DNA from: an uncultured bacterium
GTDB taxonomy: Bacteria; Bacillota_I; Bacilli_A; RFN20; CAG-826
Direction of reading: 5' to 3'
Length of the DNA stretch: 43,122 nucleotides
NCBI GenBank assembly: GCA_949296775.1
Contig: CASFQA010000004.1
Coordinates: 67,698 to 110,819 of the forward strand
The translations under genes were made by a program, and so were the position numbers. The notes under the pieces are model-generated. The model worked only from the letters and a program-made list of their open reading frames with translations. It was not told the origin of the DNA and did not search any database. Each line of letters starts with the position of its first letter. Position 1 is the stretch's first letter. This document shows positions 11,126 through 32,506 of this stretch, in pieces.

Positions 11126-11134
11126 AGCCTCCGT

Positions 11135-12703: not shown

Positions 12704-12733
12704 CGCTTGCCCATTATCCTCTTTAGGCAAGCG
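12704..12733. other. Hairpin between small ORF and tRNA-Leu
   Basis: CGCTTGCC at 12704-12711 and GGCAAGCG at 12726-12733 form a perfect 8-bp stem with a 14-nt loop, 14 bases before the tRNA 5' end. There is no T-run, so a processing or spacer structure is more likely than a terminator. Confidence 0.45.
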
Positions 12734-12767
12734 GGAAGGAAGGGGCAAATTACCGAGCCCCGATTAT

Positions 12768-12923: not shown

Positions 12924-12965
12924 AAAAACTCTAAACTCCTTTCTTCGGATCTACCGAATTTTGCT

Positions 12966-12983
12966 AACCCCTCTCGGGGGGTT
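12966..12983 (-). other. Hairpin at the predicted 5' end of the tRNA-Leu transcript
   Basis: On the minus strand AACCCC, a six-base loop and GGGGTT form a 6-bp stem starting about 7 bases after the -10 box, which is the expected transcription start. It may protect the RNA 5' end. Confidence 0.4.
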
Positions 12984-12988
12984 GCGAA

Positions 12989-13016
12989 ATAATACGGGGT
13001 TTTAGAGGCCCGTCAA
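12989..13016 (-). promoter_or_regulatory. Sigma-70/A-type promoter for the small ORF and tRNA-Leu
   Basis: On the minus strand TTGACG (13011-13016) and TATTAT (12989-12994) are separated by 16 bases. Both hexamers are one mismatch from consensus, making this one of the best promoters in the window. Confidence 0.65.
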
Positions 13017-13106
13017 GTCAAAATGCTTTTGAAAGCGGTTACAATCTATATTTACATCAAAATAAGAAAAAAACGGGTTTTCTTAATTTTCCATCGGAAA
13101 TTTTTC

Positions 13107-14375: not shown

Positions 14376-14461
14376 ACGTGCTGATTTTACCGCTTTAGGA
14401 AACAGGCTAAAAGATTAAGCCGATGCGGTCTATAATATGCCGGTCTGCTCGAGGTAAGAAA

Positions 14462-14977
14462 ATGTTAGTGAAAGTCAGAGAAAAACAAACCGGCTCCAAA
14501 CTATGCGCCGTCTGCGGCATGGAGAACCCATTCGGCCTCCACGCCCAGTTCTACACGATGGAGGACGACACCGTCGTCGCTTTGTTCCGCTTTAACGAGA
14601 TGAACCAAAGCTATCCCCATCGGACCCATGGCGGCTTGATTTCCGCCATCCTCGATGAGACGATCGGTCGGGCGATCTGGGCCACCGAACCCGGGGTCTG
14701 GGGGGTGACGATGAAGCTCAACATCGAATTCCATAAGCCCTGCCCATATAACCAGGACCTCATCTGCGTCGCCAAGATCACCAAATCGACCAAGATGACC
14801 TTTGAGGGCGAAGGCGTCCTTTATACCCGCGACGGGGTTATGCTCGACAAAGGGACCGCCCTTTACTTCAAATTGCCTTTAGAGCAAGCGGTCACCGGCG
14901 ATGAGTCCATCAAAGACGATGACGTCAACGTCATGTATCCCGACGACGTAAGGGAAATCGATGTCCCCGGAAAATAA
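14462..14977 (+). CDS. PaaI-like hotdog-fold acyl-CoA thioesterase
   Basis: 171-residue hotdog-fold protein of the PaaI/YbgC-related thioesterase group. The start region carries CAVCGMENPFGLHAQF, then HGGLISAILDETIGRAIW in the central helix (the HGG and DE motif carry the usual catalytic residues), and strands with MKLNIEFHKPCPYN. It probably hydrolyses acyl-CoA or related thioesters in the cytosol. The ATG at 14462 is chosen because the upstream 13 codons are not family-like and GAGG precedes it. A TATAAT box lies about 30 bases upstream. It overlaps the next gene by 17 bases, so the pair is an operon. Confidence 0.82.
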   Translation: MLVKVREKQTGSKLCAVCGMENPFGLHAQFYTMEDDTVVALFRFNEMNQSYPHRTHGGLISAILDETIGRAIWATEPGVWGVTMKLNIEFHKPCPYNQDLICVAKITKSTKMTFEGEGVLYTRDGVMLDKGTALYFKLPLEQAVTGDESIKDDDVNVMYPDDVREIDVPGK

Positions 14978-15779
14978 TAACCCAACGAAGCGCCAGCGCA
15001 TCGGCAAGTTCATCCTCCGTCTCTTATTGGTGATCGCCGTCTTGGCGGCGATTGCCGTCGCTTTCTACTTTATCTATAAAGCCCTCGGCTGGGATCGCTT
15101 TTCCAACCGCGAGGAATTTCAGGAATACATCGCCTCCTTCGGGGCTTGGGGTCCGGCCCTATTCATCCTCCTCTCTTTCCTGCAGGTCACTTTCATCCCC
15201 CTGCCAAGCACCGTGACCATATTAGCCGGCTCCTTCCTTTTTGGGGCCGGCATGTCTTTCCTGTATTCCTTCATCGGCATATTTATGGGGTCTTGCCTCG
15301 CTTTCTGGCTCGGAAGATGGATCGGCAAACCGTTCGTCTATTTCGTGGCCGGCGATAAGGCGATGGTCGATAAATGGCTGGAAAGGACCGAGAAAAAAGG
15401 CAACGTCATCCTCTTCTTCATCTTCCTTTTCCCTTTCTTCCCCGATGATTTATTCTGCGCCTTAGCCGGCATCACCAAGATGCGGTTTTTGACCTTCATC
15501 GTCATGCAGATCCCGACCCGGGCCATCGCCATCGGCTATAACCTTTTCTTCATGTCCGGCGAGATCATTCCCTTCCATGGGTGGGGAATCGCCGTCATCT
15601 CCATCGTCTGCGTCTTAGCCTTAGCCGCCTTTATAATCTGTTACCTCAAAGCCGAAGAGCTAGATGCCATATTCATGAAATTCATCAACAAAATCAGCAA
15701 GAAAAAAGCCCCCGAGACGGAGGCGGAGAAAGCAGATAGGGAAACTAACGAGGACGGTTCTGACGGGTCCGAGGATTGA
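14961..15779 (+). CDS. TVP38/TMEM64 (VTT/DedA-like) membrane protein
   Basis: 272-residue integral membrane protein of the TVP38/TMEM64 family, a distant relative of DedA and VMP1/TMEM41B lipid scramblases. There is one N-terminal helix (residues 17-38), then the VTT core with FIPLPSTVTILAGSFLFG, GSCLAFWLGRWIGKPF and the FPFFPDDLFCALAGITKM re-entrant region, and a final helix before an acidic/basic cytosolic tail. A role in membrane lipid handling is likely by family. Its C-terminal end overlaps the converging membrane-protein gene by 35 bases. Confidence 0.88.
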   Translation: MSPENNNPTKRQRIGKFILRLLLVIAVLAAIAVAFYFIYKALGWDRFSNREEFQEYIASFGAWGPALFILLSFLQVTFIPLPSTVTILAGSFLFGAGMSFLYSFIGIFMGSCLAFWLGRWIGKPFVYFVAGDKAMVDKWLERTEKKGNVILFFIFLFPFFPDDLFCALAGITKMRFLTFIVMQIPTRAIAIGYNLFFMSGEIIPFHGWGIAVISIVCVLALAAFIICYLKAEELDAIFMKFINKISKKKAPETEAEKADRETNEDGSDGSED

Positions 15780-16170
15780 AGTCGGAAAGATAATGGGCCC
15801 GGACATCGGCGATCGTCATGCCGAGCAGCCCCAATTGAATCAAGCACAAGGCGATGGTCCCGACCCCAACCAAGCCTAGGGCCATGACCCCGGCTAAAAA
15901 GACCAAACTCAAGACAACCGAAACCAAAAGCACCATCTTAAGGGTGAAAGTCGGTTTTTTGGTGCCGAGCATCCCCACCAGCATATCCAACCCTAAGCAG
16001 GATATCATGCAGTAGAAAAGGAAGATAAGCTCGATATCCTCAACCGAATAAAACAATTGGAAACCGGGATCGCTGAATCCGAAGTCAAATGGCAAAAGCA
16101 AGCAGCAGAAGGCGAACATCGTCAGCAAGACGGCGCCTGGGAAAGAGAAATTGTCGATCTTCTTGTTCAT
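15745..16170 (-). CDS. Four-helix membrane protein, unknown function
   Basis: 141-residue hydrophobic protein starting MNKKIDNFSFPGAV, with four predicted transmembrane helices (about 7-27, 40-62, 70-92 and 95-118) and a short polar C-terminus. The ATG at 16170 is favoured over one 15 codons upstream because GGAG stands 7 bases before it. No domain is recognised. It lies 95 bases after the unknown lipoprotein on the same strand and converges with the TVP38-family gene. Confidence 0.6.
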   Translation of the reverse strand: MNKKIDNFSFPGAVLLTMFAFCCLLLPFDFGFSDPGFQLFYSVEDIELIFLFYCMISCLGLDMLVGMLGTKKPTFTLKMVLLVSVVLSLVFLAGVMALGLVGVGTIALCLIQLGLLGMTIADVRAHYLSDFNPRTRQNRPR

Positions 16171-16265
16171 CAATTGCTCCAGCGAAAGCGTAGACTGATG
16201 GGGAGAAAAAGGCAAGAATAGAGAGTTCCCTGAATTAGAGAAGCTCGATGGAATCTAACTTATTG

Positions 16266-17369
16266 TCAATAACCTAAAGTGTAAAACAAGATGCTGATGT
16301 AGCCGTTTGGATAAAGGGGCGAGTCCATTTCCTCAGCCGTAATCCAATAGAAACCGACCCAATTATCGCCATCATTATAAGAATAATAGTTTTCGTCTAG
16401 ATCGCTTGTGGTCTCGTCTAGGGCGAAGCCGGCCTCCTCCAACAAAGGCTGCAGCACCGAAAGCAATCTCGAAGCATCCGCGGTCGAATCGGTCACCTCA
16501 ATATCGCCAAAATAGTCATCGATTGAGGCCGTATAGCCATAACCGAAGTAACCGGAGGGGAAATCAATACCGAATTGCTCGGCGTAAAGGCCAGCCACCC
16601 CCCAATCGGAAGGGGCGGAGAATTCAACCGAGGAAAGCATTTCCTCCGTCCCCTCATAAGCCGCGGTCCCAATGTCGGTAAAAGCGAAGGTCAGCTCCGC
16701 GCCCTCGATCGCCGTCTCCAAGGTGACGGAACCCTCGCCGAAAGCCAAAACCAGATCGGCGACATCGTCAGAAGTTGTGCCGTCGTAAGTGAAAATATAA
16801 TTAAGGAGGGCCGCTTTCAAATCCGAGTCGGCGCAGACGTAAGTCGAGCCATCGGCTGTCCAATCAGACGACTCGCCGATAAAATCCGCCGGGGTATAGT
16901 AGGCTTCGGCGATCGGATGCCCCTTCGCTGGGCTGACCAAGGATTGGTAATACGGCTCACCGTCTGCAAAATAAACCTCAACCATCCCGTATTCGTCATG
17001 ATTGCCCACCAATTGGCCATCGACATAGCCATCGCCATAATCGGTTTCATAGACCACCGTCTCTTCGTCGAGGTAATAGGCAAGATAGGTATAGACCGTG
17101 GACTCGCCTAAATAGGCATCGTCATAAGCGACGACGTAATTGGCCGATTTTACCCCTTCGATGAAGGAAGCTAAGCGAAGGTCGGCTTGGTTTGAGGAAG
17201 TCGATACCGAATCTTCGCCGCCAGGGGTCGAACTAGAGTCGACTAGGGTATCGCTAGGGGTTTCCTCAGGCGAAATAGAATGGGAAGACGAAGTGTCATC
17301 GCCTTGATCGCAGCCCGCCAGCAATAAGGCCGGGGCGACCAGGAAGAATAGGGGACGCAGTGATTTCAT
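16266..17369 (-). CDS. Secreted lipoprotein, unknown function
   Basis: 367-residue lipoprotein. The signal peptide ends in the lipobox LLAGC with Cys20, followed by a Ser/Thr/Glu linker to about residue 60. The remainder is acidic and tyrosine-rich, with alternating beta-like stretches such as VYTYLAYYLDEETVVYET. It resembles in style the two large lipoproteins at 35.8-39.5 kb, which suggests a lineage-specific surface family, but no named domain is visible. AAAGGAG supports the start, and a promoter with 16-base spacing is seen at 17403-17430. Confidence 0.85.
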   Translation of the reverse strand: MKSLRPLFFLVAPALLLAGCDQGDDTSSSHSISPEETPSDTLVDSSSTPGGEDSVSTSSNQADLRLASFIEGVKSANYVVAYDDAYLGESTVYTYLAYYLDEETVVYETDYGDGYVDGQLVGNHDEYGMVEVYFADGEPYYQSLVSPAKGHPIAEAYYTPADFIGESSDWTADGSTYVCADSDLKAALLNYIFTYDGTTSDDVADLVLAFGEGSVTLETAIEGAELTFAFTDIGTAAYEGTEEMLSSVEFSAPSDWGVAGLYAEQFGIDFPSGYFGYGYTASIDDYFGDIEVTDSTADASRLLSVLQPLLEEAGFALDETTSDLDENYYSYNDGDNWVGFYWITAEEMDSPLYPNGYISILFYTLGY

Positions 17370-17402
17370 TGATTCGCTCCTTTTTTTCTAATCGATGCGG
17401 CA

Positions 17403-17430
17403 ATCATATAACCGGGAGGAGGAGATGCAA
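17403..17430 (-). promoter_or_regulatory. Promoter of the 367-residue lipoprotein gene
   Basis: On the minus strand TTGCAT (17425-17430) and TATGAT (17403-17408) are 16 bases apart. A normal leader with AAAGGAG follows, so this gene has a conventional 5' UTR. Confidence 0.6.
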
Positions 17431-17500
17431 GCAGAAATTAGGAACGGAGTAAGAAAGATGGCAAATTCTATGCAAAAGTCCATCATCCTACCAAAAACCT

Positions 17501-17545
17501 AAAACCCCCGACTTTGCCCCATTGCTTAAAATCCGTCGGGGTTTT
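17501..17545. other. Large hairpin overlapping a promoter
   Basis: AAAACCCCCGAC at 17501-17512 pairs with GTCGGGGTTTT at 17535-17545, an 11-bp stem with a single bulged C. The -35 hexamer TTGCTT (17522-17527) lies in the loop, and the right arm ends just as the -10 hexamer begins. It lies between divergent genes, so a terminator would have nothing to terminate. Confidence 0.5.
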
Positions 17546-17550
17546 ACACT
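17522..17550 (+). promoter_or_regulatory. Leaderless-type promoter of the barnase-like lipoprotein gene
   Basis: TTGCTT (17522-17527), a 17-base spacer and TACACT (17545-17550). The start codon follows exactly nine bases after the -10 box, leaving essentially no 5' UTR and no Shine-Dalgarno. Confidence 0.6.
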
Positions 17551-17559
17551 AACGAGGCT

Positions 17560-19002
17560 ATGAGAAAAGCATGTCTATTGTTATTGTTGCCGTTGCTATT
17601 ATGCGGATGTCGCGAACGTTCGAGCCATTCCTCCGCCTTCGATCCTTCCGCTTGCCCGAACTCGACGTCTGACCCCACTTCCTCAACCGGTTCATCCAGC
17701 GGAGTCGATCAGGAGCAGGCCCTGCTTTTAAGCGTTGAGAAACCGATTGTCGAAATTGGGGATGAGATCGTTTTTTCCGTTACCGATTCCTTAACCGGTA
17801 ACCTCGTCGCCGATGCCTCTATCCGGGCGGTGGCCGGGGGTTTTTACATCGAGGAAAGCAACGGACGTTTCTATGGGGCCAAAGCCGGCCAAGCCCAGTT
17901 CCAAGCCTTTTCCCCCGCCTATGAAAAAGGCAGCAATTTGATCTTGGTCACGATCCAAGAGGAATCGACCCCCATCCCCTTATACGTCAACACCGCCAAA
18001 TTAGCCGAAGGTGATGAGGGCCAACTCATCACCCCAAACTATGACATCGCCAAGATCAGCTTCGAATTCACGCAAGGAGAGGGGGAGATATATCGAGATG
18101 GCCGTTTCCGACTCTATAGCGATTCCGCCACCATCGTCGGCCACACGGCCAATCGAACCACCAATCCGGTCGAAGTCAGCTCGATCCCCTTATCCGAAAC
18201 GCCATACTACAACGTCGACGTCGACGAGTTCTACGCCGATTACGAGCCCGCCTCCTCAAACGAAGACGCCTACTTCCGTTCGTTAGCCGGCCTGATGTCG
18301 GGCTCGCTACATGAGCAAGACCAGGAACCGACTATCGCCATCAATCAGCCCAAAGAAGGAAACGCCTTCATCCGGAACACGACGATGGAGTATTCAGCGG
18401 ACATGAATACCTATTATGTCCTCGATGCCGACGGGAACCGCGCCTTTGAGGTTTACCGCAATGGCGCCTACGCCACCTTGGAAGAGGTCGCCGCTTATAT
18501 CTACGCCTTCGCCGACGTCCCCGCCAATTACGAGGAGGACAAAGACGCTCGCCCCACCCAATCGATTTGGGGTGAATACCTTCGGGTCAATCACAGCGAA
18601 TTCAGCGGCGATAGCTCGAACTGGCCCTACCAGCCGATCCTCCCAGGGGTCTCGGGGGAAGGGGGCAACCTCCAATATTATGAGGTCGACATCGGAACCA
18701 CCGGCACCGATTGCGACCCGGCCTATGAGGCCTTGCCCTATAACAACGGCTATAAAATCACCCGCGGCGCCGCAAGGATCGTCTATGCCAGAGAACATTT
18801 AGACGGAACCCCGATAACCGATCCGGAAGAACGGTATCTGTTCTATACCTATAATCATTACAACGACTTCCAGGAATACCTGAATTATGAGAATGGCTGG
18901 GGAGAGATGTTCGGCAATATAACCGGCGGCGGCCCGATTTCCGACTATGACCCCGATTATCCGCCCACCCCTTACGTCGAAGTCGGCTTTCAAAAATTTT
19001 AA
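17560..19002 (+). CDS. Lipoprotein with Ig-like region and C-terminal barnase-like ribonuclease domain
   Basis: 480-residue lipoprotein (lipobox LLCGC, Cys17, then a Ser-rich linker). Residues about 50-135 look like a bacterial Ig-like fold. The C-terminal ~170 residues follow the barnase/binase pattern: LEEVAAYIYAFADVPANY matches the first barnase helix and its PDNY turn, then LPGVSG, YEVDI, ARIVY and YTYNHYNDF. Glu375, Arg406 and His433 correspond to barnase Glu73, Arg87 and His102, with a ~12-residue insertion between the last two. If active it would be a surface-anchored RNA endonuclease, for nutrient RNA or competition. No barstar-like inhibitor gene is visible nearby. The domain call is by eye. 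Confidence 0.68.
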   Translation: MRKACLLLLLPLLLCGCRERSSHSSAFDPSACPNSTSDPTSSTGSSSGVDQEQALLLSVEKPIVEIGDEIVFSVTDSLTGNLVADASIRAVAGGFYIEESNGRFYGAKAGQAQFQAFSPAYEKGSNLILVTIQEESTPIPLYVNTAKLAEGDEGQLITPNYDIAKISFEFTQGEGEIYRDGRFRLYSDSATIVGHTANRTTNPVEVSSIPLSETPYYNVDVDEFYADYEPASSNEDAYFRSLAGLMSGSLHEQDQEPTIAINQPKEGNAFIRNTTMEYSADMNTYYVLDADGNRAFEVYRNGAYATLEEVAAYIYAFADVPANYEEDKDARPTQSIWGEYLRVNHSEFSGDSSNWPYQPILPGVSGEGGNLQYYEVDIGTTGTDCDPAYEALPYNNGYKITRGAARIVYAREHLDGTPITDPEERYLFYTYNHYNDFQEYLNYENGWGEMFGNITGGGPISDYDPDYPPTPYVEVGFQKF

Positions 19003-19055
19003 TCCCTATTATTTATATATAACGTACCCGCGCGAGGTTCGATGGCATCGAATAA

Positions 19056-19067
19056 GTAAGCGCTTAC
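19056..19067. promoter_or_regulatory. cre-like operator upstream of the glycan-binding lipoprotein
   Basis: GTAAGCGCTTAC is a perfect 12-base palindrome. With its flanks it matches 13 of 14 positions of the Bacillus cre consensus. It ends 8 bases upstream of the -35 box. Confidence 0.6.
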
Positions 19068-19075
19068 ATTTTTTG

Positions 19076-19104
19076 TTGATAAGCGCTTTTCAGGCTTGTA
19101 ATAT
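19076..19104 (+). promoter_or_regulatory. Promoter of the glycan-binding lipoprotein gene with internal operator
   Basis: TTGATA (19076-19081), 17-base spacer, TAATAT (19099-19104). A second AAGCGCTT core (19081-19088) overlaps the -35 box and the start of the spacer, so a LacI-family repressor would directly occlude RNA polymerase. Confidence 0.75.
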
Positions 19105-19110
19105 GTAATT

Positions 19111-19128
19111 AACTTAAACGCTTAAGTT
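19111..19128. promoter_or_regulatory. Inverted repeat at the predicted transcription start
   Basis: AACTTAA and TTAAGTT are perfect 7-base arms around ACGC, centred about 15 bases after the -10 box. It contains a third ACGCTT core and may be a further repressor site. Confidence 0.45.
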
Positions 19129-19150
19129 CGCAAGCAAAGGAGGAACAAGC

Positions 19151-20701
19151 ATGTTTAAGAAAAAAGCCTTCGTCGTCCTGTTGGCTGCCTTCGGGCTCAT
19201 CGCCTGCGACCCGGCCGCCACTTCCACCACGCCCCCGGAGTCAACTCCGCCGGCCTCAACCCCAACCGAATCCGAAGAAAGCGGAGTCACCATCACCTAT
19301 CAAGTCGATGGGAAAACCGTCCACACCGAGAAATTGGCCGAAACCGGCGGCGTCCCTACCAACTACGCTTACACTCCTAGCGAAGGTGAGTTCGTAGGCT
19401 GGTATCTTACCCCGACCTTCTCGCGGATCTACGACTTCAAAACCGCCTTAACCGAGGATACCACCCTCTTTGGAGCCGTCTCAATCTACGAAGAGGATAC
19501 CCGGGTGTTCTACCTCGCCGGCGCCGGGACCTCGCCCACTCTCTCCACTTCCTCTTGGGGCGACAACCCAACCGACGCCCAAAAACTAACCAAAGAAGCC
19601 AACAAAAACGTTTTTACCATCACCGCTGATTTCTACGCCAACGATCAATTCCAAATCACCTCGTTCGAGGAAACGGAAACCGATCCCTATGCCTGGGATT
19701 GGCAATACGGGGTCGGCTACATCATCAACGCCTCGGAATTGACCGACATCGTCGAAGGCGCCGGCGGCATCGCGGCCTCGAACCGGAAATCGAACATCAA
19801 AATCCTGCAGGATGGGAACTACACCATCACGCTGAAGACCTATCCGGACCATATCGACCCCGAGGACACCGAACACATCAATAACCTCGACAACATCACC
19901 ATCAAGCGGAACGGGGATCCGGTCGAGGAAAAGCCGGAGACCACCTACGCCTATTACATCAAAGGCAAAAACATCACCAACTGGCAGAGTCAATTGAACG
20001 CCACCACCCGTTTCGCCGACCAGCAGAATGGAACCTACAAATTGACCATCTATTTGGACGCTGATGAGCAATTCATGTTCTACACCATGTCAACCAAAGC
20101 CGATGGCACGACCTCCGACGCCAACATCAACATCAATTACACGAATCTCGACACGGCTGCCCAGGCCCTCTTCGCCAAACCGGAACAAGGGAATGACATC
20201 CTTACGAAGGAAGCTGGGGAATACACCTTCATCTACACCCCAGGCGCCGACAATACCCCCGGCACGGTAACCGCGACCGTCGACAAGACCAAGACCTTGC
20301 CCGTCTACGACTACTACCTCAACGGTACCATGGCGAGCAGCGACGGCCTCTCCTGGAGCCCATCCACCGTCCAAGACAACAACATTCTTAAGGACACCTA
20401 CAAGTTCACCGTCAATTCCGCCGATGCCCGTCTCTACGAACTGAAAGGGGTAAAGATGGTCGCCAACGCCGAATTCGCCATCGCCGCTTTCGTCGCCGGC
20501 TCAACCACCGTCGGCGATGGATGGTCGAATAAAGCCGCGGACTACAACTACACCTACTCCGACACCAGCAACTCCGCCGAGGTCTGGGAAGCAGCCAATG
20601 CGGTAGGCGGCAACTACAACTTCAAGTGCAAAGTCGCCGGCACCTACGACATCAGCTACAACGTCTACTCCCACATCATCACCATCAAATCGGCAGCCTA
20701 A
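19151..20701 (+). CDS. Lipoprotein with InlB-type repeat and tandem glycan-binding-like modules
   Basis: 516-residue lipoprotein (lipobox LIAC, Cys19; Thr/Pro/Ser linker to residue 45). Residues about 45-110 match the InlB/Flg_new beta-grasp repeat: ITYQVDGKTV, then GEFVGWYLTPTFSRIYDF and DTTLFG. After that come three roughly 120-residue modules. Each begins with an aromatic strand (VFYLAGAG, YAYYIKGK, YDYYLNGT) and ends with a beta hairpin such as YTITLKTYP or YDISYNVYSHIITI. This resembles SusE/SusF or CBM-type starch-binding folds. With the maltodextrin genes next door and cre-like operators upstream, extracellular capture of alpha-glucan is a reasonable inference. AAAGGAGGAAC gives an ideal ribosome binding site. 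Confidence 0.75.
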   Translation: MFKKKAFVVLLAAFGLIACDPAATSTTPPESTPPASTPTESEESGVTITYQVDGKTVHTEKLAETGGVPTNYAYTPSEGEFVGWYLTPTFSRIYDFKTALTEDTTLFGAVSIYEEDTRVFYLAGAGTSPTLSTSSWGDNPTDAQKLTKEANKNVFTITADFYANDQFQITSFEETETDPYAWDWQYGVGYIINASELTDIVEGAGGIAASNRKSNIKILQDGNYTITLKTYPDHIDPEDTEHINNLDNITIKRNGDPVEEKPETTYAYYIKGKNITNWQSQLNATTRFADQQNGTYKLTIYLDADEQFMFYTMSTKADGTTSDANININYTNLDTAAQALFAKPEQGNDILTKEAGEYTFIYTPGADNTPGTVTATVDKTKTLPVYDYYLNGTMASSDGLSWSPSTVQDNNILKDTYKFTVNSADARLYELKGVKMVANAEFAIAAFVAGSTTVGDGWSNKAADYNYTYSDTSNSAEVWEAANAVGGNYNFKCKVAGTYDISYNVYSHIITIKSAA

Positions 20702-20709
20702 AGAAAAAA

Positions 20710-20739
20710 GGGCGTGAGGCCGTTCTCCTCCTCACGCCC
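20710..20739. terminator. Bidirectional Rho-independent terminator
   Basis: GGGCGTGAGG and CCTCACGCCC form a perfect 10-bp stem around a 10-nt loop, with A-rich sequence on the left and T-rich on the right. It separates the glycan-binding lipoprotein gene from the converging LacI gene, whose stop codon is 4 bases away. Confidence 0.85.
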
Positions 20740-20743
20740 TTCC

Positions 20744-21502
20744 TTAGATCTTGCAATGGACCGAAGCCCCTTCCTCGTTTATGGAGGAAAGGGTCGTCTC
20801 AACCACCTTGGCGATCTTCGTTTCGCCAAAGCAATCCTTCCCTACATCCCCTTCCCTAAGGTAAGGCAGCAAGGCCGGATCCCGAACGTAGCAGCCTAAC
20901 GGCTCTCTCTGATATTCGGCCAAGGAAGTAACGACGCGGACGTCGAAATGCTCTCGGAAATAGCTCATCAGTTCGGATGAGGCTACCGGTAGGCATACAA
21001 GCGTTTGCCCATCGTAACGGTCATAATCGTCGTAGATGACGTTGAAAAGCCAATCGCCTCCGACCAACGAATCGACCGAGATAAGAGGGATGAAAACGTT
21101 GTTCCCAACCTCCCGGAACCGTTCGGCCGACAAACCGATGGCGACGATGGCATCGACCATCGATCCATCCGGCAACGAGCCCGCCGGCTCTAAGCAAACG
21201 CGATACCCTTTCGCAAGAAAAGCCCTCGTCAATCGATCGGCGATAATCGATTTGTTTGCCAGGGGCAAGGCGGCCGTATCCATATCGAAGATCAAGGAAA
21301 CCAAGCCGTGATGCCCGCTAGCCAACGAAGCGGCGGCCGGATTCTTGATGTAATGGTAAAGGTTGGCGAGCTGCAGGATCTTCTTCCGCTTCTCCTCGCC
21401 GATCTTCTGATCGGTCCGATTGTTCAATACGTAGGAAACGGTGGCGATGGAGACGCCGGCTTCCGCTGCCAATTCCTTAATCGTCACTCGTTTGCTAGCC
21501 AT
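20744..21502 (-). CDS. Compact LacI-family regulator (probable maltodextrin repressor)
   Basis: 252-residue DNA-binding regulator. The N-terminal HTH and hinge are canonical: VTIKELAAEAGVSIATVSYV, a hinge region with YHYIKNPAAASLASG, then the start of an effector domain (GLVSLIFDMDT). LacI proteins are normally 330-340 residues. Here the effector domain is about 190 residues, lacking much of the second subdomain, so ligand binding may differ. The start at 21502 is the family start; a TATGAT box lies exactly 9 bases before it and there is no Shine-Dalgarno. It is divergent from the GH13-ABC operon with 37 bases between start codons. It is the likely reader of the AAGCGCTT operators, though CcpA is an alternative. 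Confidence 0.83.
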   Translation of the reverse strand: MASKRVTIKELAAEAGVSIATVSYVLNNRTDQKIGEEKRKKILQLANLYHYIKNPAAASLASGHHGLVSLIFDMDTAALPLANKSIIADRLTRAFLAKGYRVCLEPAGSLPDGSMVDAIVAIGLSAERFREVGNNVFIPLISVDSLVGGDWLFNVIYDDYDRYDGQTLVCLPVASSELMSYFREHFDVRVVTSLAEYQREPLGCYVRDPALLPYLREGDVGKDCFGETKIAKVVETTLSSINEEGASVHCKI

Positions 21503-21511
21503 ATTGTCCGT

Positions 21512-21517
21512 ATCATA
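21512..21517 (-). promoter_or_regulatory. -10 box of the LacI gene, leaderless-type
   Basis: TATGAT on the minus strand is followed by nine bases and the ATG at 21502. TCCGT and ACGGA arms of an imperfect inverted repeat flank it (21507-21511 and 21529-21533), a possible autoregulatory site shared with the divergent operon. Confidence 0.5.
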
Positions 21518-21539
21518 AACAAAAAAGGACGGAAATTGA

Positions 21540-23234
21540 ATGAATACCCAAGCTCTCCTCCACATAAGCGAGTCCCCCTACGCCTCATTGGTATCGGAAA
21601 AAGATTTTTGCCTGCGGCTGCGCCTCGCCTCGGAGGATAAGGGTTTATCGGTCTATGCCCATTTCGGGGGGAAATACCCTTTCCCGACCAGCAGAGAGAA
21701 AATCCCGATGGCACTAGCTTACCTAGATTCGGAATTCGCCTATTTCGAAGCCATTATCCCCGTTAAGGACAAACGGCTGGCATATGTCTTCGAAATCGTC
21801 GAAAACGGCCAAAGCCATTTCTTCACCGAAAAAGGATTAACCGACCATTACGACTTCGCTTGCTCCTATAAGGATTTCTTCCAATTCCCCTACCTTCACC
21901 AAATCGACGTCCCCTCTTTGCCTTCTTGGCTGGAAGGGGCGTTCTTCTACCAAATATTCCCGGACCGCTTCAAACTTGGGGACAAAGGCAAGGACCTTTC
22001 ATACGTTAATTTAGACTGGGGCGGCGCCCCGACCCCGCAGTCTTTTGCCGGCGGTGACTTAGAAGGAATAAGGGAGCGGTTGCCCTACCTCGCCTCGCTT
22101 GGGGTCAATGCCTTATACCTTACCCCGATCTTCCTTTCCCCTTCCTACCATAAATACGACATCGTCGATTATTTGAAAATTGATCCCCAACTAGGCGACG
22201 AAAAGACCTTGAAAAGGTTGATCGACGACGCTCATAAAGCGGGGATCCGCCTAGTATTAGACGCGGTGTTCAATCACCTTTCCTCCCAAAGCCTGTTCTT
22301 CCAAGACGCAGTGAAAAACGGCCGGAAATCGCCCTATTGGGATTGGTTCTTCGTCCACGGGGACCATATCGATCTCAATAAACCCAACTACGAGTATTTC
22401 TCCGTTTGCCCGTATATGCCCAAGCTGAACCCCGACTCATCGACCTGCGCCGCCTATTTGAAGAAAGTCGCCCTTCATTATTTGGACTTGGGGATCGATG
22501 GGTGGCGATTGGACGTCGCCGATGAAGTGAGCCATGAATTCTGGCGCGACTTCCGGAAAGCCATCAAATCCGCTTATCCGGAAGCCCTCATCCTCGGCGA
22601 GCATTGGCATAACCCTCACGCCTTTTTGAAAGGCGATGAGTTCGATGGGGTCATGAATTATCCGCTCACCTACGCCCTGGAAAGCTATTTGGCCTCCAAA
22701 AACAGCAACGCCAGACATTGCGCCTCGGAGATCAACCGGATATTCGCCAATATCCGCCCAAGCCAAATCCAGGGCAATCTCAACCTCCTCGATTCCCATG
22801 ATACCTTCCGCTTCTACACCCTTTGCAAAGAGAACATCGACCTTTTGGAATGCGCTCTGGCGGCCCTGGTTTTCATGCCCGGATGCCCGGGGATTTATTA
22901 CGGGACGGAAATACCTTTGCCTGGGAATTTCGATCCGGATTCCCGCCGCTGCTTCCCCCTTGACGGAGAAAAGCCGACCGCCCATTCCGAACTGCTGCGG
23001 AATTTAATCGCCATCCATACAAAACAAATCAGCCATCTCCGCAAATTCCGTTGTCAGGAAATAGAAGGGCTCCTCCGAATCGAAAGAAGCGAGGGAGGCC
23101 AAGGGCTAGAGCTTTATATAAACGCCACCGACCACCCGATCCAATTAAAAGGCGACGACCATCTTTTAGCCCATCGTTATGAATCCAATCACATTCAGCC
23201 AAACGGCTTTCTCATAAGGAGGTTGCAAAAATGA
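21540..23234 (+). CDS. GH13_20-type neopullulanase/cyclomaltodextrinase (first paralogue)
   Basis: 564-residue cytosolic enzyme hydrolysing maltodextrins, cyclodextrins or pullulan fragments. A CBM34-like N-terminal domain (about 1-120) precedes the GH13 barrel. Conserved regions are DAVFNH, GWRLDVADE with nucleophile Asp325, LILGEHWH with acid/base Glu354, and LLDSHDT with Asp421. The start is confirmed by alignment with two paralogues at 28.8 and 30.7 kb. AAGGAC 10 bases upstream is a weak ribosome binding site. The stop overlaps the binding-protein start as ATGA. It is first in the five-gene maltodextrin operon and the most diverged of the three copies. Confidence 0.93.
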   Translation: MNTQALLHISESPYASLVSEKDFCLRLRLASEDKGLSVYAHFGGKYPFPTSREKIPMALAYLDSEFAYFEAIIPVKDKRLAYVFEIVENGQSHFFTEKGLTDHYDFACSYKDFFQFPYLHQIDVPSLPSWLEGAFFYQIFPDRFKLGDKGKDLSYVNLDWGGAPTPQSFAGGDLEGIRERLPYLASLGVNALYLTPIFLSPSYHKYDIVDYLKIDPQLGDEKTLKRLIDDAHKAGIRLVLDAVFNHLSSQSLFFQDAVKNGRKSPYWDWFFVHGDHIDLNKPNYEYFSVCPYMPKLNPDSSTCAAYLKKVALHYLDLGIDGWRLDVADEVSHEFWRDFRKAIKSAYPEALILGEHWHNPHAFLKGDEFDGVMNYPLTYALESYLASKNSNARHCASEINRIFANIRPSQIQGNLNLLDSHDTFRFYTLCKENIDLLECALAALVFMPGCPGIYYGTEIPLPGNFDPDSRRCFPLDGEKPTAHSELLRNLIAIHTKQISHLRKFRCQEIEGLLRIERSEGGQGLELYINATDHPIQLKGDDHLLAHRYESNHIQPNGFLIRRLQK

Positions 23235-24283
23235 GAAAAACCCACACCATCTTCGCCGTCCTTTCCCTCCTCGCCCTCGCCTCTTGCGGCCCAAGCGAAG
23301 AGGGAACTTCCAGCTCGCCCGACAAAGGCAATGAAAGCGAAATAAAAGAAGCGACAGCCGACATGCCGGTTTTTGACCGCTTCGAGGGAGAGTTGGAACG
23401 GAACATCACCCTCCAGATATTGGAAAACGACACCGCCAAATCCTTAGGCTACCTTGACGAGCTGCTCGACGCTTTTAACGAAGAATACGCCGAGTATGGG
23501 ATCAAGGCGGTCGACGCCAACATCGACCAATACTCCAACCTCGCCGAGGATGGCCCCTATGGTTATGGCCCCGATGTCCTCTATCAAGCCAACGACGTCA
23601 TCATGAAATACGTCCGCGGGCGGCACGTCATGCCCTTGCCGACTTGGAACATCGAAGCCTATGAGCACTTCCCTGAGTCGGCCATCAACGCCTACAAAGG
23701 GATCGAATCGGGAGTCCGCTATTCCTTTGGGGTCCCCGTCAACGCCCAAGCCCCGATGCTTTTCTACCGGAAGGACATGGTCCCCGAAGGATCGGATGCC
23801 AACAACAACGGGATCCCCGACATGGTCGAAAGCTGGAATGCTTTATACAAATATTCGAAAGAAATCAATGCCGCCGATCCTTCGAAACGCGGCTATATGA
23901 AAGCCCTCTATGACGTCTATTTCTCCGCCGGTTATCTCTTCTCCTATGGAGCCTATGTCTTCGGAGACGACGGAACCAATCCCAATGACATCGGCTTTAA
24001 CAAAGGGGAGGCCTGGAAGGGGGCTTGGATTATCCGCCAATTAGCGGAAATCATGGGTCCGACCTGCGTCGACGATTCAATCAACACCACCTGCTATGGC
24101 CAACTCGCCAGGGGCGAGATCTTCGCCACCATGACCACCCCGGACGTCACCAATAATTTCACCACCGAGATGGTCACCGAATACGTCGCCTCCGGACTAA
24201 GCGCCGCCGACGCCCAGCAGGCCGCGAAGGAAAACCTGGTTATCGCCGACTTACCCAAACTCCCCAAATCCGGCAATCTATAG
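23231..24283 (+). CDS. malE: Maltodextrin-binding lipoprotein, N-terminal 350 residues, ended by in-frame amber
   Basis: Solute-binding lipoprotein of an oligosaccharide ABC transporter. The lipobox is LASC with Cys19, then a Ser/Glu linker, then lobe 1 of a type-I sugar binding fold (ITLQILENDTAKSLGYLDELLDAFNEEY; PDVLYQANDVI; SFGVPVNAQAPMLFYRKD). The frame stops at TAG (24281-24283) after LPKLPKSGNL. The same frame continues without further stops to 24709 and encodes the rest of the domain, so the gene is one 491-residue protein interrupted by a single codon. A C-to-T change in CAG is the simplest origin. Translation is coupled to the upstream GH13 gene (AAGGAGG, ATGA overlap). Confidence 0.85.
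   Translation: MRKTHTIFAVLSLLALASCGPSEEGTSSSPDKGNESEIKEATADMPVFDRFEGELERNITLQILENDTAKSLGYLDELLDAFNEEYAEYGIKAVDANIDQYSNLAEDGPYGYGPDVLYQANDVIMKYVRGRHVMPLPTWNIEAYEHFPESAINAYKGIESGVRYSFGVPVNAQAPMLFYRKDMVPEGSDANNNGIPDMVESWNALYKYSKEINAADPSKRGYMKALYDVYFSAGYLFSYGAYVFGDDGTNPNDIGFNKGEAWKGAWIIRQLAEIMGPTCVDDSINTTCYGQLARGEIFATMTTPDVTNNFTTEMVTEYVASGLSAADAQQAAKENLVIADLPKLPKSGNL
24281..24283 (+). other. In-frame amber codon inside the binding-protein gene
   Basis: CTA TAG GAA interrupts an otherwise continuous frame from 23231 to 24709. TAG is used as the natural stop of other genes here (for example 11097-11099 and 30461-30463), so it is not generally reassigned. Confidence 0.85.
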
Positions 24284-24307
24284 GAAGAGAACCCGGAACT
24301 CATCGAC

Positions 24308-24709
24308 ATGAAAGCGATGGGCGGCATCAACGGCTACGCCATCTCCTCCTACACCAAATATCCGGTCGCCTGCTTAGCCTTCATCAACTTCGCCACCAGC
24401 TTCGAGATGAATCAGCTCCGCGAGACGATGCTTGGGGTCGCCCCGTGTCGGGACGACGTCGTCGCTGCGTCTGATTCGGCCATTTCGGAAAACGTCTACT
24501 CCCGGCTAGAGGACGGCCTCATCACCTTAATGCCATCCTTAAACGAAACCAGCCAAATCTGGACTCCGGGCGAAACGCTGAACAAAGACCTCGCCACCGA
24601 CCCCAATCGCCCGGCATCTCAGCAAAAATACCACGACCAGGAAGATTATCAAACCGGCTTAGACGAAATGGTCAGGCAAATCCACGAAGCGATAACGACC
24701 TTGGCATGA
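24308..24709 (+). CDS. malE: Maltodextrin-binding protein, C-terminal segment after the amber
   Basis: Same frame as the preceding segment. It can begin at the ATG at 24308, and carries the second part of the binding fold: MGGINGYAISSYTKYPVACLAFINFATS is the usual lobe-swap region of MalE-like proteins. It ends with a helix before TGA. On its own it lacks a signal peptide and would stay in the cytosol as a fragment, so it is meaningful only if the amber is read through or absent in most cells. No ribosome binding site precedes 24308. Confidence 0.7.
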   Translation: MKAMGGINGYAISSYTKYPVACLAFINFATSFEMNQLRETMLGVAPCRDDVVAASDSAISENVYSRLEDGLITLMPSLNETSQIWTPGETLNKDLATDPNRPASQQKYHDQEDYQTGLDEMVRQIHEAITTLA

Positions 24710-24713
24710 TTTT

Positions 24714-26150
24714 ATGGAAAAGGAAAGCCGCGGGAAGAAAATAGTCCTGTCAATCGCCGATTATTTTCGCTCAATCCCCGCAAAAACGAAATCTTTCTTC
24801 CAAAAACAATGGATGAAGGCAAAATCGTTCGGCGCGAATATCGCTGACTTCTTTGCCCAATCGGATTGGAAGGTCCTCCTTTCCCTCCTCTTCTCTGGAG
24901 CGGGAAACATCGCCTATGGCCAATACGCCAAAGGCATCATGTTCCTTCTGCTTGAAGCCTTCTTCATAGTCTATATGGTTCTCTTAGGCGGGGACTATTT
25001 AGTCGGGCTCGTGACCCTAGGGACCAAAGAGTCCGATCCTTGGTCAGGGGTAGTCGGCGACAACTCGGTCGTCTTGATGCTCATGGGCATCTTGACCGTC
25101 TTCATAATCCTCTGCTTCCTCTTGCTTTACCTCAGCGGCTTACGGAGCGCCCTATCGGCAAGGCTAACCAAACTAAAGGGCCAAAAACCACGGACTTTCA
25201 TGGAAGACGTCGCTTCCTTGGCGGGACGGAAATTCCCCTACGTCGCCCTTTTCGTCCCTTTGTTAGGGGTCATGGTCTTCTCGGTCATCCCCATCGTCAT
25301 GATGATCCTCGTCGCCTTCACCAATTTCGGTGGGGAAATCGAAGTCCCGACCGACTTGGTCGATTACGTCGGGTTCGACAATTTCGCCACCATCTTCGGC
25401 GCCACCAACATCGGGACCACTTTCTTCAAGATATTTGGCTGGAACCTCGCCTGGGCCTTCCTCTCGACTTTCATCAACTATTTCTTAGGGTTGGGGTTGG
25501 CTTTGCTTTTATCCAAAAAATGCGTCAAGGGATCAGCTTTCTGGCGGGCTTTCCCGATCTTGGCCTATGCCATCCCCGGCTTCATCACCTTGATCGGCTT
25601 CAAGTTCATGTTCTCGACCATGGGCCCCATCAATTATTACCTAAGCGACGGGCATATGCACGATAGCAATATCATCGATTTCCTCGGCCTTGATTCGACT
25701 TGGTGGGCGCGGGGGATCGGGCTCTTCGTCAATGCCTGGCTCACGGTGCCGACGACCATGCTTTTGGCCACCGGGATCCTTTCCAATATCCAGAAAGACC
25801 TTTACGAGGCGGCGGATATCGATGGGGCCAGCAAAAGAAAACAATTCTTCGACATCACCTTGCCCTACGTCATTTTCGCCACCACCCCCACCCTCATCTC
25901 CCAATTCATCGGCAACTTCAACAACTTCGGAACCTTCTATTTCCTAAGAGGGGGAACCATAAGCGAGGGCTACTTCCTGGCTTCGGACACCGATCTATTG
26001 ATCAATTGGCTCTATAATCTTTCCATCAGCAAGAACTTTTACGGCATCGGGGCCGCCATCTCCTTACTAATATTCATCATCACTTCAGCCATCTCGCTAT
26101 TGGTCTATGTCCGAAGCGGTTCCTATAAGAAGGAGGACACTTACCGATGA
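24714..26150 (+). CDS. malF: Maltodextrin ABC transporter permease MalF-type
   Basis: 478-residue membrane permease. An N-terminal cytosolic segment and two or three extra helices (about 55-145, including GAGNIAYGQYAKGIMFLLLEA) precede the conserved permease core, as in Firmicute MalF proteins. The EAA loop DLYEAADIDGASKRKQFFDITLP lies at about residues 361-383 and docks on the ATPase. It begins 4 bases after the binding-protein stop and overlaps malG as ATGA. It forms the transmembrane channel with MalG. Confidence 0.93.
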   Translation: MEKESRGKKIVLSIADYFRSIPAKTKSFFQKQWMKAKSFGANIADFFAQSDWKVLLSLLFSGAGNIAYGQYAKGIMFLLLEAFFIVYMVLLGGDYLVGLVTLGTKESDPWSGVVGDNSVVLMLMGILTVFIILCFLLLYLSGLRSALSARLTKLKGQKPRTFMEDVASLAGRKFPYVALFVPLLGVMVFSVIPIVMMILVAFTNFGGEIEVPTDLVDYVGFDNFATIFGATNIGTTFFKIFGWNLAWAFLSTFINYFLGLGLALLLSKKCVKGSAFWRAFPILAYAIPGFITLIGFKFMFSTMGPINYYLSDGHMHDSNIIDFLGLDSTWWARGIGLFVNAWLTVPTTMLLATGILSNIQKDLYEAADIDGASKRKQFFDITLPYVIFATTPTLISQFIGNFNNFGTFYFLRGGTISEGYFLASDTDLLINWLYNLSISKNFYGIGAAISLLIFIITSAISLLVYVRSGSYKKEDTYR

Positions 26151-26980
26151 AAGGCAAAACCAAAAAGATCATCGATGCCTTGATCACCTATTGTTTGCTG
26201 ATCATCGTCGCCTTCATATTCCTCTTCCCCTGCCTCTGGCTTATCCTGGCCTCCTTTTCCTCGACGGGAAACCTCTATTCCATCCCTGGTTTCTTCCCTG
26301 AATCCTATTCCTTCAAGTCCTTCATCACCCTCTTCACCGACACGGCGATGTATGACTATCCGCGGTGGCTGCTCAATACCTTGATAATCGCGGTCTGCTC
26401 CTGCGTTTTATCCACCATCTTGGTCATCTTGACCGCCTACGTCATTTCCCGTTTCGAATTCAAAGCCCGGCGGCCCTTGATGAAAGGGGCATTGGTGCTG
26501 GGGATGTTCCCCTCCTTCATGTCGATGACCATCATTTACATCCTCATGACCCAATTCCAGCTGATCAACAACCTATTTGGCCTCATCGCCATCTATTCCT
26601 GCACCGCCCCGATGGGCTATTTGGTCCAAAAAGGGTTCTTCGACACCATCCCGACCTCGATCTATGAGGCGGCGCGAATCGACGGGGCCAACAACGTCCG
26701 GGTATTCCGCACCATCACGCTGCCCCTAGCCAAGCCGATGATCGTCTATACCGCCCTCACCAGCTTCACTTGGCCGTGGTCGGATTTCGTCTTGCCGAAA
26801 ATCTTATTGAAAAACCGTGAGAATTGGACGGTCGCGGTTGGACTGATGAGTTTAGGCGAAACCGAATTCTCCCGCTTCGCCGCCGGGGCGGTCTTCATCG
26901 CCGTCCCCATCGTCGTTCTTTATTTCCTTCTTGTTAAGAATATGGTTTCCGGCTTAACGGCCGGGGCCGTGAAAGGATAA
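26147..26980 (+). CDS. malG: Maltodextrin ABC transporter permease MalG-type
   Basis: 277-residue permease with six predicted helices. The EAA loop [20 protein letters not shown] is at about 170-190. The first helix (about 12-32) is followed by an external loop with [15 protein letters not shown], as in MalG/LacG-like proteins, and the protein ends GLTAGAVKG, a typical MalG C-terminus that contacts the ATPase. It is translationally coupled to malF by a 4-base overlap, and the ATPase gene begins 6 bases after its stop. Confidence 0.94.
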
Positions 26981-26985
26981 AACAT

Positions 26986-28680
26986 ATGGCCAAAATCAGA
27001 TTGGAAAACGTCACCAAAGTCTACAAAGGCGGAGTCCGGGCGGTCTCCGATGCCTCCTTAGAAATCCACGATAAGGAATTCATCGTCTTCGTTGGCCCTT
27101 CAGGCTGCGGCAAATCGACGACCTTGAGGATGATCGCCGGCTTAGAGGAAATAACCTCCGGCAACATCTTCATCGGCGATACCTACGTCAACGATCTAGA
27201 GCCAAAAGACCGCAATATCGCCATGGTTTTCCAAAATTACGCCCTTTATCCCCATATGAGCGTCTACGAGAACCTAGCCTATTCGCTCCGTTGCCAGAAG
27301 GCCAAAAAGGAAGTCATCGAGGAAAAAGTCCATAAAGCGGCGACGATCCTCGGCATCGAAAACCTCTTAAAGCGGACCCCGCGGGAATTAAGCGGCGGCC
27401 AACGTCAACGGGTCGCCTTGGGCCGGGCCATAGTCCGCGAGCCCGCGGCCTTCCTTTTCGATGAGCCCCTTTCGAACCTCGACGCCAAACTTCGGGTGGC
27501 GATGCGGGCCGAGATATCCAAACTCCACCAAGATATCCAAACCACCTTCGTCTACGTCACCCACGACCAAACCGAGGCGATGACGATGGGGGATCGGATC
27601 GTGGTCATGAAAGACGGCCTCATCCAGCAAGTCGACACCCCGATGAACCTCTATGACCATCCGGGCAATATCTTCGTCGCCACCTTCTTAGGCAGCCCTC
27701 AAATGAACATCTTCGAAGGAACGATAGTCAAAAAGGGCGAGGAAAAGCACTTTATCTCCCTTGACGAATCGATCGATATCCTCATCCCCGATGTCGAGCT
27801 ATGCCAGATTGATGAACGGCTCTACCCCCTCGAAGCCTATTTGGGCATCCGTCCAAACGACATCAAAATCGAAACCGCCGGATTCCCGGTCGAAATCGAA
27901 TTGGTCGAGCGGCTCGGGGAACAGACCTTGGTCTACTTCCATCTTGGCGGACGGAAGGAATTCACCATCCTCTCCCTAGTCGAGCCCAACTCCTTAGCCA
28001 AAGGGGACAAAATCAAAGTCCGCTTCGACGTCGGCAAACTCCATCTTTTCGACAAAAAGAGCGAGAAAAACCTAAGCAACGCCGTACCCATCATCGAAAT
28101 GGAGATCGAAAAAGCCAACTTGACCGCGAACGAAAAAGCCCAATTGGATAAACGGCTCATCAACCAATCGCGCCCGAAGTCCATCGCCTTCTTGGCCAGC
28201 AACGTCAAAACCGAAGCAGAGGAAAACGCCCACCGTTTCACCGTCAAAGTGGAGGGAGAGAAGGATTATGGGGATAGGAAAACCTATTACGGGCGCGACG
28301 AAAGCCTGACCATCATCCCCTTTCTTACCGATAAGCCCTTCAGAAAAGGCCAGAAAGTCGACCTCTACGTCCAGCTCGATCACCTTAACTACACCGATGA
28401 GGAGGGCGAAAGGATAAGCGACGATGAGCCGGTAAACGATCATGTCTATCCCGCCACCCTTACCTTCCGTCCCCGCGGCTGCTTCTTATCCGAAGCCGAG
28501 CTCCACAACGACGAAAAGTGTTACAAGACCATCCGCTCGGTCCGATTGGGGAAGAAGACGCTTCTTCACCTCGAAGGGGCGGAAACCAAGCAGAAACTCC
28601 TTTACCTCGTCGATTCCAGCGACCTTATCTACTCCTCCCTCCCCATCTACATGCGGAAGAAAAGGAAAAACGGGAAATAA
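26986..28680 (+). CDS. malK: Sugar ABC transporter ATPase (MsmX/MalK type) with ~200-residue C-terminal extension
   Basis: 564-residue ATPase energising the MalFG permease. Walker [10 protein letters not shown] is at 37-45, the signature [14 protein letters not shown] starts at 135, Walker B is [15 protein letters not shown], and the switch histidine is in [17 protein letters not shown]/MalK regulatory folds run to about residue 360 ([11 protein letters not shown]), where MsmX and MalK normally end. About 200 further residues follow with no motif recognised; they look like additional beta-rich and helical segments. It may also serve other sugar importers, as MsmX does in Bacillus. It ends the operon before a terminator. 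Confidence 0.93.
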
Positions 28681-28717
28681 AGGCCTTCAGTCGGCTTAAC
28701 CCATAGGCAAAGTCCAA

Positions 28718-28749
28718 CCGATAGGAAACCTTCGGTATTTTTCTATTTT
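28718..28749 (+). terminator. Terminator of the maltodextrin ABC operon
   Basis: CCGATAGG and CCTTCGG pair (with one bulge) around AAA at 28718-28735 and are followed by a T-rich tract to 28749. The promoter of the next GH13 gene starts immediately after. Confidence 0.65.
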
Positions 28750-28750
28750 G

Positions 28751-28780
28751 TTTCCATCGGGAAAAGGCTTGTTCTAATAT
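28751..28780 (+). promoter_or_regulatory. Leaderless-type promoter and operator of the second GH13 paralogue
   Basis: TTTCCA (28751-28756) acts as -35 with an 18-base spacer to TAATAT (28775-28780); the ATG follows after nine bases. The -35 lies in the imperfect palindrome TTTCCATCGGGAAA (28751-28764). The arrangement is repeated upstream of the third paralogue. Confidence 0.6.
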
Positions 28781-28789
28781 GTAGTCACC

Positions 28790-30463
28790 ATGAATAAACA
28801 AGTCATATTCCATTTAAGCGAGTCCCCCTACTCCTACCCCACCTCCCAGGACACTTTCTTCTTCCGCCTGCGGATGGCCAAAGAAGACAAAGACCTCAAG
28901 GTAACCGTCTATTACGGAAACAAGTTCTTCCTCCGGGAAATGAAGCAGCCGGCCGTCATGAAGCCAGCCCGGACCGATGAGAACTTCGTCTACTTCGAAG
29001 CCGAGGTCAAATTAAACGACAACCGGGTCGGCTACGTCTTCGAGATCGAGGAAGACGGCCATACCTATTACTACAACGAAGCCGGGTTGCTCGATAGTTA
29101 CGATTATCACGATTGCTACAAGGATTTCTTTGAGTATTCCTCCGTCCACCCCGAGGACATCGGCGACTCCCCCGCTTGGTGCAAAAACGCGGTATTTTAC
29201 CAAATATTCCCCGACCGCTTCCGGATGGGCGACAAGCATAAGGACACCTCCTACATCACCATGGGCTGGTACGATAAGCCGACGCCCCGCGACTTCGCCG
29301 GCGGCGACCTCCGGGGGATCATCGAAAGCTTGGATTACCTGGAAAGCCTCGGCATCAACGCCATCTACCTGACTCCGATCTTCAAATCCAACAGCAACCA
29401 TAAATACGACACCTTGGATTACTTCCAGATCGACCCCCATTTCGGCAGCCTCGACGATTTCAAGGAACTGGTGAAGAAAGCCCATGAACATGGCATCCGC
29501 CTCGTCCTCGACGCCGTCTTCAACCACATGTCCTTCTTCGCTCCCCAATTCCAAGACGCCATCAAAAACGGCAAGAAATCACCTTATTGGAACTGGTTTT
29601 ACATCCATGGGGACGAAGTCGATCCCAAGAAGCCCAACTACTGGACGTTCTCCATCGGCCGTTATATGCCCAAAATCAACGTCACCAACCCGGAAACCGA
29701 GGCTTACCTCAATTCCATCGTCTTCCGTTACCTCGAGCTCGGGATCGACGGCTGGCGGTTCGACGTCGGCGACGAGATCTCCCATTCCTATTGGAGGCAG
29801 TTACGGACCAAGGTCAAAGCCAAATACCCGGAGGCTTTGCTATTGGGCGAGCATTGGCATAACGCCCATTCCTTCCTTCGGGGCGATGAGTTCGACGGGG
29901 TCATGAATTACCCGGTCACCTATGCCATCTACGACTATTTGATCTACCGAAGGTTCTCCGCCCAGAAAGAAGCCGATACGTTGAATCGCCTTTACACCAA
30001 CTACCGGATCCAGGCCACCATGGCTTGCCTGAACCTCCTCGATAGCCACGATACCCACCGCTTCCTCAACCTCGCCAACCAAAACGTCGATATCCTCGAA
30101 TGCGCCATCGCCGTCCTTTTCTTCGTCCCGGGCATGAGTTGCCTCTATTACGGGACCGAGATCCCGATGGATGGGGCCTTCGATCCCGACTGCCGGCGGG
30201 GCTTCCCCTACGAAGAGGCGATCAAAGGCAGCCCCCATCAAGACTTGATAAAACAGCTTATCGAGATCCGGAAGACCCCGGATTTGGGCTCGACCGATTT
30301 CTTAGCCGCGGAAGAAAACGATTTGTTGGTCATCAAACGGGGAGGCACGTATTTATACGTCAACGCCACCGACCGACCGATCGAGAAGAAAGGCAAGGTC
30401 ATTTGCTCGCATAATTACCAAGATGGCGTCATTAATCCCAACGGCTTCGCCATCATAAAATAG
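28790..30463 (+). CDS. GH13_20-type neopullulanase (second paralogue)
   Basis: 557-residue cytosolic GH13 enzyme with a CBM34-like N-terminal domain. Catalytic residues are Asp325 (GWRFDVGDE), Glu354 (LLGEHWH) and Asp421 (LLDSHDT), at the same positions as in the other two paralogues. It is transcribed from its own promoter after the operon terminator. It is the same length as the third paralogue, with blocks of almost identical DNA (29291-29385 and 29717-29917) that exceed the average similarity, pointing to recent duplication or gene conversion. It has no Shine-Dalgarno. Three isoenzymes may differ in linkage or chain-length preference, which sequence alone cannot tell. Confidence 0.93.
   Translation: MNKQVIFHLSESPYSYPTSQDTFFFRLRMAKEDKDLKVTVYYGNKFFLREMKQPAVMKPARTDENFVYFEAEVKLNDNRVGYVFEIEEDGHTYYYNEAGLLDSYDYHDCYKDFFEYSSVHPEDIGDSPAWCKNAVFYQIFPDRFRMGDKHKDTSYITMGWYDKPTPRDFAGGDLRGIIESLDYLESLGINAIYLTPIFKSNSNHKYDTLDYFQIDPHFGSLDDFKELVKKAHEHGIRLVLDAVFNHMSFFAPQFQDAIKNGKKSPYWNWFYIHGDEVDPKKPNYWTFSIGRYMPKINVTNPETEAYLNSIVFRYLELGIDGWRFDVGDEISHSYWRQLRTKVKAKYPEALLLGEHWHNAHSFLRGDEFDGVMNYPVTYAIYDYLIYRRFSAQKEADTLNRLYTNYRIQATMACLNLLDSHDTHRFLNLANQNVDILECAIAVLFFVPGMSCLYYGTEIPMDGAFDPDCRRGFPYEEAIKGSPHQDLIKQLIEIRKTPDLGSTDFLAAEENDLLVIKRGGTYLYVNATDRPIEKKGKVICSHNYQDGVINPNGFAIIK
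29291..29385 (+). repeat. Near-identical block shared with 31184-31278
   Basis: 94 of 95 bases are identical between the second and third GH13 genes here, including third codon positions, while flanking coding sequence differs clearly. Confidence 0.85.
29717..29917 (+). repeat. Near-identical block shared with 31610-31810
   Basis: 199 of 201 bases are identical between the second and third GH13 genes, spanning the codons for Asp325 and Glu354. The sequence diverges sharply right after it. Confidence 0.88.
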
Positions 30464-30542
30464 CCTTGCCTCGTCTAACCCACTTCTTGGAAAAGCCGCC
30501 TATACCAATCTCTAGGTACGGCCGAAAAGGCTATTTTCCGCC

Positions 30543-30579
30543 AAAAAACGCGTAATTCCCTTATAAACGACGCGTTTTT
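30543..30579. terminator. Terminator after the second GH13 paralogue
   Basis: AAAAACGCGT and ACGCGTTTTT form a perfect 10-bp stem with a 16-nt loop, symmetric enough to work in both directions. A second hairpin (GGCCGAAAA with TTTTCCGCC) precedes it at about 30517-30541. Confidence 0.7.
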
Positions 30580-30643
30580 CGCTATTCGTTCCAGATCTAT
30601 CGGCCTTCTTCCCTTTTGAAGCGAAAAGAAATTTCTTATTTTG

Positions 30644-30673
30644 TTTCCAAATGGAAAATGGTTGTTCTAATAT
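30644..30673 (+). promoter_or_regulatory. Leaderless-type promoter and operator of the third GH13 paralogue
   Basis: TTTCCA (30644-30649), 18-base spacer, TAATAT (30668-30673), then nine bases to the ATG at 30683. The -35 is the left arm of the palindrome TTTCCA-AA-TGGAAA (30644-30657), whose arms match perfectly. Confidence 0.62.
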
Positions 30674-30682
30674 GTGCCTGCT

Positions 30683-32356: not shown

Positions 32357-32370
32357 CCTGGAATTAGCCA

Positions 32371-32407
32371 AAAAGCCCGCAAAATCCATTCATTGGACGC
32401 GGGTTTT
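32371..32407 (+). terminator. Terminator after the third GH13 paralogue
   Basis: CCCGC (32376-32380) and GCGGG (32399-32403) pair, with an inner TCCA/TGGA stem, followed by TTTTCTTTT. Confidence 0.65.
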
Positions 32408-32506
32408 CTTTTGCTTTCCCGTTCTCGCTTGGACAAGGATAATGAATTTTCTTGCAATTTCCCCAAAACTCGACAAAATTCTTTCGCCACAAAGGAGGCT
32501 TTGGGC

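Follow-up and report, generated by a model that had tools for sequence, protein, structure and literature searches.

The maltodextrin locus and its interrupted binding-protein gene

The window (the whole stretch of 43,122 nucleotides that was analysed) belongs to an uncultured bacterium whose genome is assembled in 10 contigs (1.52 Mb, 96% complete), and harbors a maltodextrin-import locus with the following features:

20744..21565, minus strand: LacI-family regulator, 273 aa, below curated cut-offs, with a matching N-terminal DNA-binding region
21540..23234, plus strand: GH13 alpha-amylase family enzyme, 564 aa, intact
23231..24283, plus strand: truncated malE-like ORF, residues 1-350, with a lipoprotein signal (LASC lipobox), ending at an amber codon
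24281..24283, plus strand: in-frame TAG, codon 351
24284..24709, plus strand: remainder of malE, 141 codons and TGA, coding conservation kept, lacking a signal peptide of its own
24714..26150, plus strand: MalF-like permease, intact
26147..26980, plus strand: MalG-like permease, intact
26986..28680, plus strand: MalK/UgpC/MsmK-type ATPase, 564 aa, with a long C-terminal extension, intact
28790-30463 and 30674-32356, plus strand: two GH13 cyclomaltodextrinase/maltodextrin glucosidase-like enzymes, intact

Translation of the plus-strand frame 23231-24709 gives 350 residues, a single TAG (24281-24283), 141 further residues and a final TGA. The read-through product and intact orthologues (90, 90, 77, 75 and 73% identity) are collinear along 492 residues, which rules out a chance in-frame extension and confirms the preliminary description of one amber codon splitting a single gene. 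The same description had assigned both sides of the codon to one MalE-like fold, and this is borne out. The SBP_bac_1 score rises from 53.3 bits for the first part alone to 67.0 bits for the read-through protein (cut-off 26), the match extending from residues 74-266 to 74-390, and the related SBP_bac_8 model scores 64.4 bits (cut-off 27). The AlphaFold model (mean pLDDT 81) finds its best structural matches among maltodextrin-binding proteins from Thermotoga, Listeria, Lactobacillus and Streptococcus, with a TM-score (target) of 0.71-0.79. From this fold and the operon context, we infer that the malE product would bind maltodextrin.

The rest of the transporter is intact, as had been proposed: full-length alignments with relatives were obtained for MalF, MalG and MalK as well as for the GH13 genes on either side, and no stop or frameshift was found in the other 26 main genes of the window wherever they could be aligned. 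The MalK-like ATPase extends about 200 aa at its C-terminus beyond the MalK/UgpC models. Further downstream, two adjacent genes (32393-35832) give weak M6 metalloprotease domain matches, below the curated cut-off, and are 97% identical to the sister species G009 and 68-76% to the sister species G028. Identity between the window and G009 is a mosaic, averaging 81.7% over 10608-28659 and reaching 94.6% over 30662-42675, with no G009 alignment over about 2080-10608; this pattern suggests recombination or gene gain and loss.

Codon 351 in relatives and selection beyond the stop

Among 31 genomes of the genus, a close malE copy is present only in the genome of the window, G009, G028 and G008, and the closest named relatives of the genome of the window are metagenome-assembled genomes of uncultured Bacilli and Firmicutes, a kind to which it probably belongs itself. 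A codon alignment was made of eighteen orthologue records, which reach from within the genus out to Paenibacillus, Clostridium and Butyrivibrio and count among them the two sister-species records, retrieved a second time by name. All 18 carry a sense codon at position 351 (TCC, TCG, TCA, ACG, ACA or AAC, i.e. Ser, Thr or Asn); no stop, no Gln and no gene truly ending at this point were found among them. Relatives with an intact gene and a sense codon here are what is expected for a nonsense pseudogene, and both sister species have an intact malE at 90% identity. The sisters use TCC, from which TAG is two changes away; two of the closer relatives (L067, L068) use TCG, from which it is a single C-to-A change. 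Since the records have Ser, Thr or Asn, the ancestral codon was probably Ser (TCC or TCG) and not Gln. A recent mutation, as suggested in the preliminary description, therefore stays a live option, but the CAG-to-TAG route does not.

Beyond the stop, malE shows no clear decay and is as conserved as in intact relatives: its last 141 codons contain neither a second stop nor an indel and, compared with the sisters, show a dN of 0.067 and a dS of 1.1 (dN/dS about 0.06-0.07), against 0.037 and 0.85 (dN/dS 0.044) for the mature part before the stop. The ratio of post-stop to pre-stop dN is 1.8 for the malE of the window and 1.6 between two intact relatives (L065/L066; dN 0.204 after the site and 0.131 before it). 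Because this intact pair shows a similar ratio, the raised post-stop dN seems to be characteristic of this part of malE. A strict outgroup-polarized count gave 5 replacement to 6 silent changes after the stop versus 2 to 28 (Fisher p = 0.0096), but this hint of relaxation vanishes in the majority-outgroup version (p = 0.21).

None of the 14 post-stop amino-acid differences falls in the 34 columns that are invariant in all other sequences. In simulations of neutral drift, the probability of leaving these columns unchanged was 0.23 at 0.02 substitutions per site and 0.015 at 0.05, and none of 400 runs did so at 0.1. Taken with the simulation, the unchanged columns argue that the stop is either very young or not real. 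A real lesion would date back less than about 0.05 substitutions per site, on a branch measuring about 0.5 synonymous substitutions per site.

Reading the amber codon: mutation, error or suppression

The explanation that we consider probable is a very recent nonsense mutation in the malE of an otherwise intact maltodextrin locus. The chief competing explanation is that the TAG arose as an error of assembly or consensus, or that the metagenome-assembled consensus has fixed the allele of a minor strain, the gene being intact in most cells. Assembly error had been listed as an option from the start, and this rival is kept alive by two observations, the lack of clear decay in the downstream coding sequence and a defect elsewhere in the same assembly: the only detected tRNA-Ser(UGA) gene (contig C9, about 4361-4440; L106:4361-4440), which adjoins tRNA-Ile(UAU), has a 13-base internal deletion in the D-arm region, between short CGG repeats. 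These 13 bases are present in G009 and G028, and the cell should need the gene, as UCA codons are in use (50 in the genes of the window). Either an assembly error at this gene or an undeleted copy within the 4% of the genome that is missing is likely, and the deletion suggests that the assembly may contain errors. A homopolymer frameshift, in malK, is likewise seen in the assembly of the sister G009. On the other side, the TAG lies outside any homopolymer, in a non-repetitive context, and differs from the sisters' TCC by two bases; the other 26 main genes of the window are free of stops and frameshifts where aligned, and no comparable in-gene stop was found in 159 kb of the same genome. On balance, error or a minor allele is a possible reading of the TAG, though a doubtful one.

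That last comparison comes from a codon-usage scan, in which several stops had coding signal on both sides. The others are followed within a few codons by a start codon and resemble ordinary gene junctions; the malE TAG, which has the strongest coding signal immediately downstream of all, is alone in combining strong signal right behind it with a first start codon eight codons on. The purifying selection visible after the stop would speak for readthrough by a suppressor tRNA, a leaky context or a programmed site, yielding a small amount of full-length MalE. The search for a tRNA with a CUA anticodon, which had been proposed as a check, found none among 47 tRNAs (Rfam model detection, ARAGORN anticodons) in this genome, of which some 4% is missing; RF1 is intact; and PylS gave only sub-threshold cross-matches, with a model that cross-reacts in 13 of 14 control genomes and exceeds its cut-off in one of them. 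TAG moreover terminates 5 of the 27 main genes of the window, in agreement with the preliminary view that it is a normal stop here and that wholesale recoding is unlikely. Together with the lack of a comparable stop in the scan, these results make systematic readthrough unlikely; amber recoding, tRNA suppression and pyrrolysine insertion are unsupported. A programmed site was also rejected, the stop being conserved in none of the 18 orthologue records. We accordingly regard readthrough as very improbable.

Production of MalE in two pieces, cooperating or with the truncated protein functional by itself, would require reinitiation, for which an ATG (24308) lies 24 bases past the stop and an AGGAAG-like motif at the stop. 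Some 20 bases separate this motif from the ATG, however; the second piece, lacking a signal peptide, would remain cytoplasmic, apart from the exported first piece; and no relative has a split malE, so that we find this reading scarcely credible. A phase-variable switch, another early suggestion, is not borne out either: a base substitution produced the lesion, its surroundings are not repetitive, and no second close copy that could recombine with it was found in the genome. The case is an ordinary one, either a nonsense allele of recent origin or an error of assembly, and involves no novel decoding of the genetic code.

The frameshift in the malK of G009 (L009, contig C3; matching 26986-28680 of the window) lies near residue 250, where an A7 run carries a +1 shift; malK is intact in the window and in G028. 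It may reflect either an importer lost independently or a mistake in the G009 assembly. That the clade is losing its maltodextrin importer by independent lesions (the malE amber here, the frameshifted malK in G009) seems unlikely; such lesions would perhaps be kept as reversible variants at strain level, the use of imported maltodextrin being favored only at times. Apparent stops in two other malK-type genes of the genome of the window were discarded: at C1:306663-307742 the alignment had continued beyond the point where an intact gene really ends, and at C2:28691-30634 the frame is open through a large insert to a terminal TAA. The latter gene (L094, about 28691-30634) encodes a MalK-like ATPase whose ATPase domain contains about 230 inserted residues.

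Predicted consequence and comparison with known systems

In the proposed scheme of a recent nonsense mutation, codon 351, ancestrally Ser (TCC or TCG), would have become TAG, and translation would halt after 350 of 491 residues, RF1 being present and an amber-reading tRNA not found. The predicted product is a truncated lipoprotein without the last third of the fold, including strand 362-372 and all C-terminal helices in the model, and should neither bind nor deliver maltodextrin. MalFGK2-type importers need a binding protein for transport. A protein search (E 1e-3) found no second close MalE in the genome, only distant other SBP_bac_1 proteins, so the MalFGK importer should be silent for its substrate in cells with the TAG allele, its other genes being intact. 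Both the loss of function and the reality of the TAG in the cell are things that we infer. One codon may thus be enough to make a sugar-import locus that looks complete in a fragmented draft genome non-functional, or to have it wrongly called so. The malE stop itself has little importance beyond annotation; the two different lesions in sister genomes call for caution in inferring diet or niche from the maltodextrin locus.

We found no precedent in the literature bearing on this malE gene. Recent single-nonsense pseudogenes of bacterial transporter operons share its traits, namely one stop, intact orthologues in sisters and no further decay; compared with them the gene has nothing distinctive, and its TAG is known from the assembly rather than from reads. 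With respect to functional MalE-type systems, the gene similarly adjoins MalF/MalG/MalK-like genes and GH13 enzymes. Its product shares the SBP fold and the lipobox with the Gram-positive lipoproteins Lmo2125 of Listeria (5tu0), MalE1 of L. casei (5m28) and MalX of S. pneumoniae (2xd2), and matches the SBP fold of Thermotoga MalE (6dts, 2gha). It differs from these known proteins in sequence, with just 16-21% identity over the fold, and in that the copy in the window is cut at residue 350.
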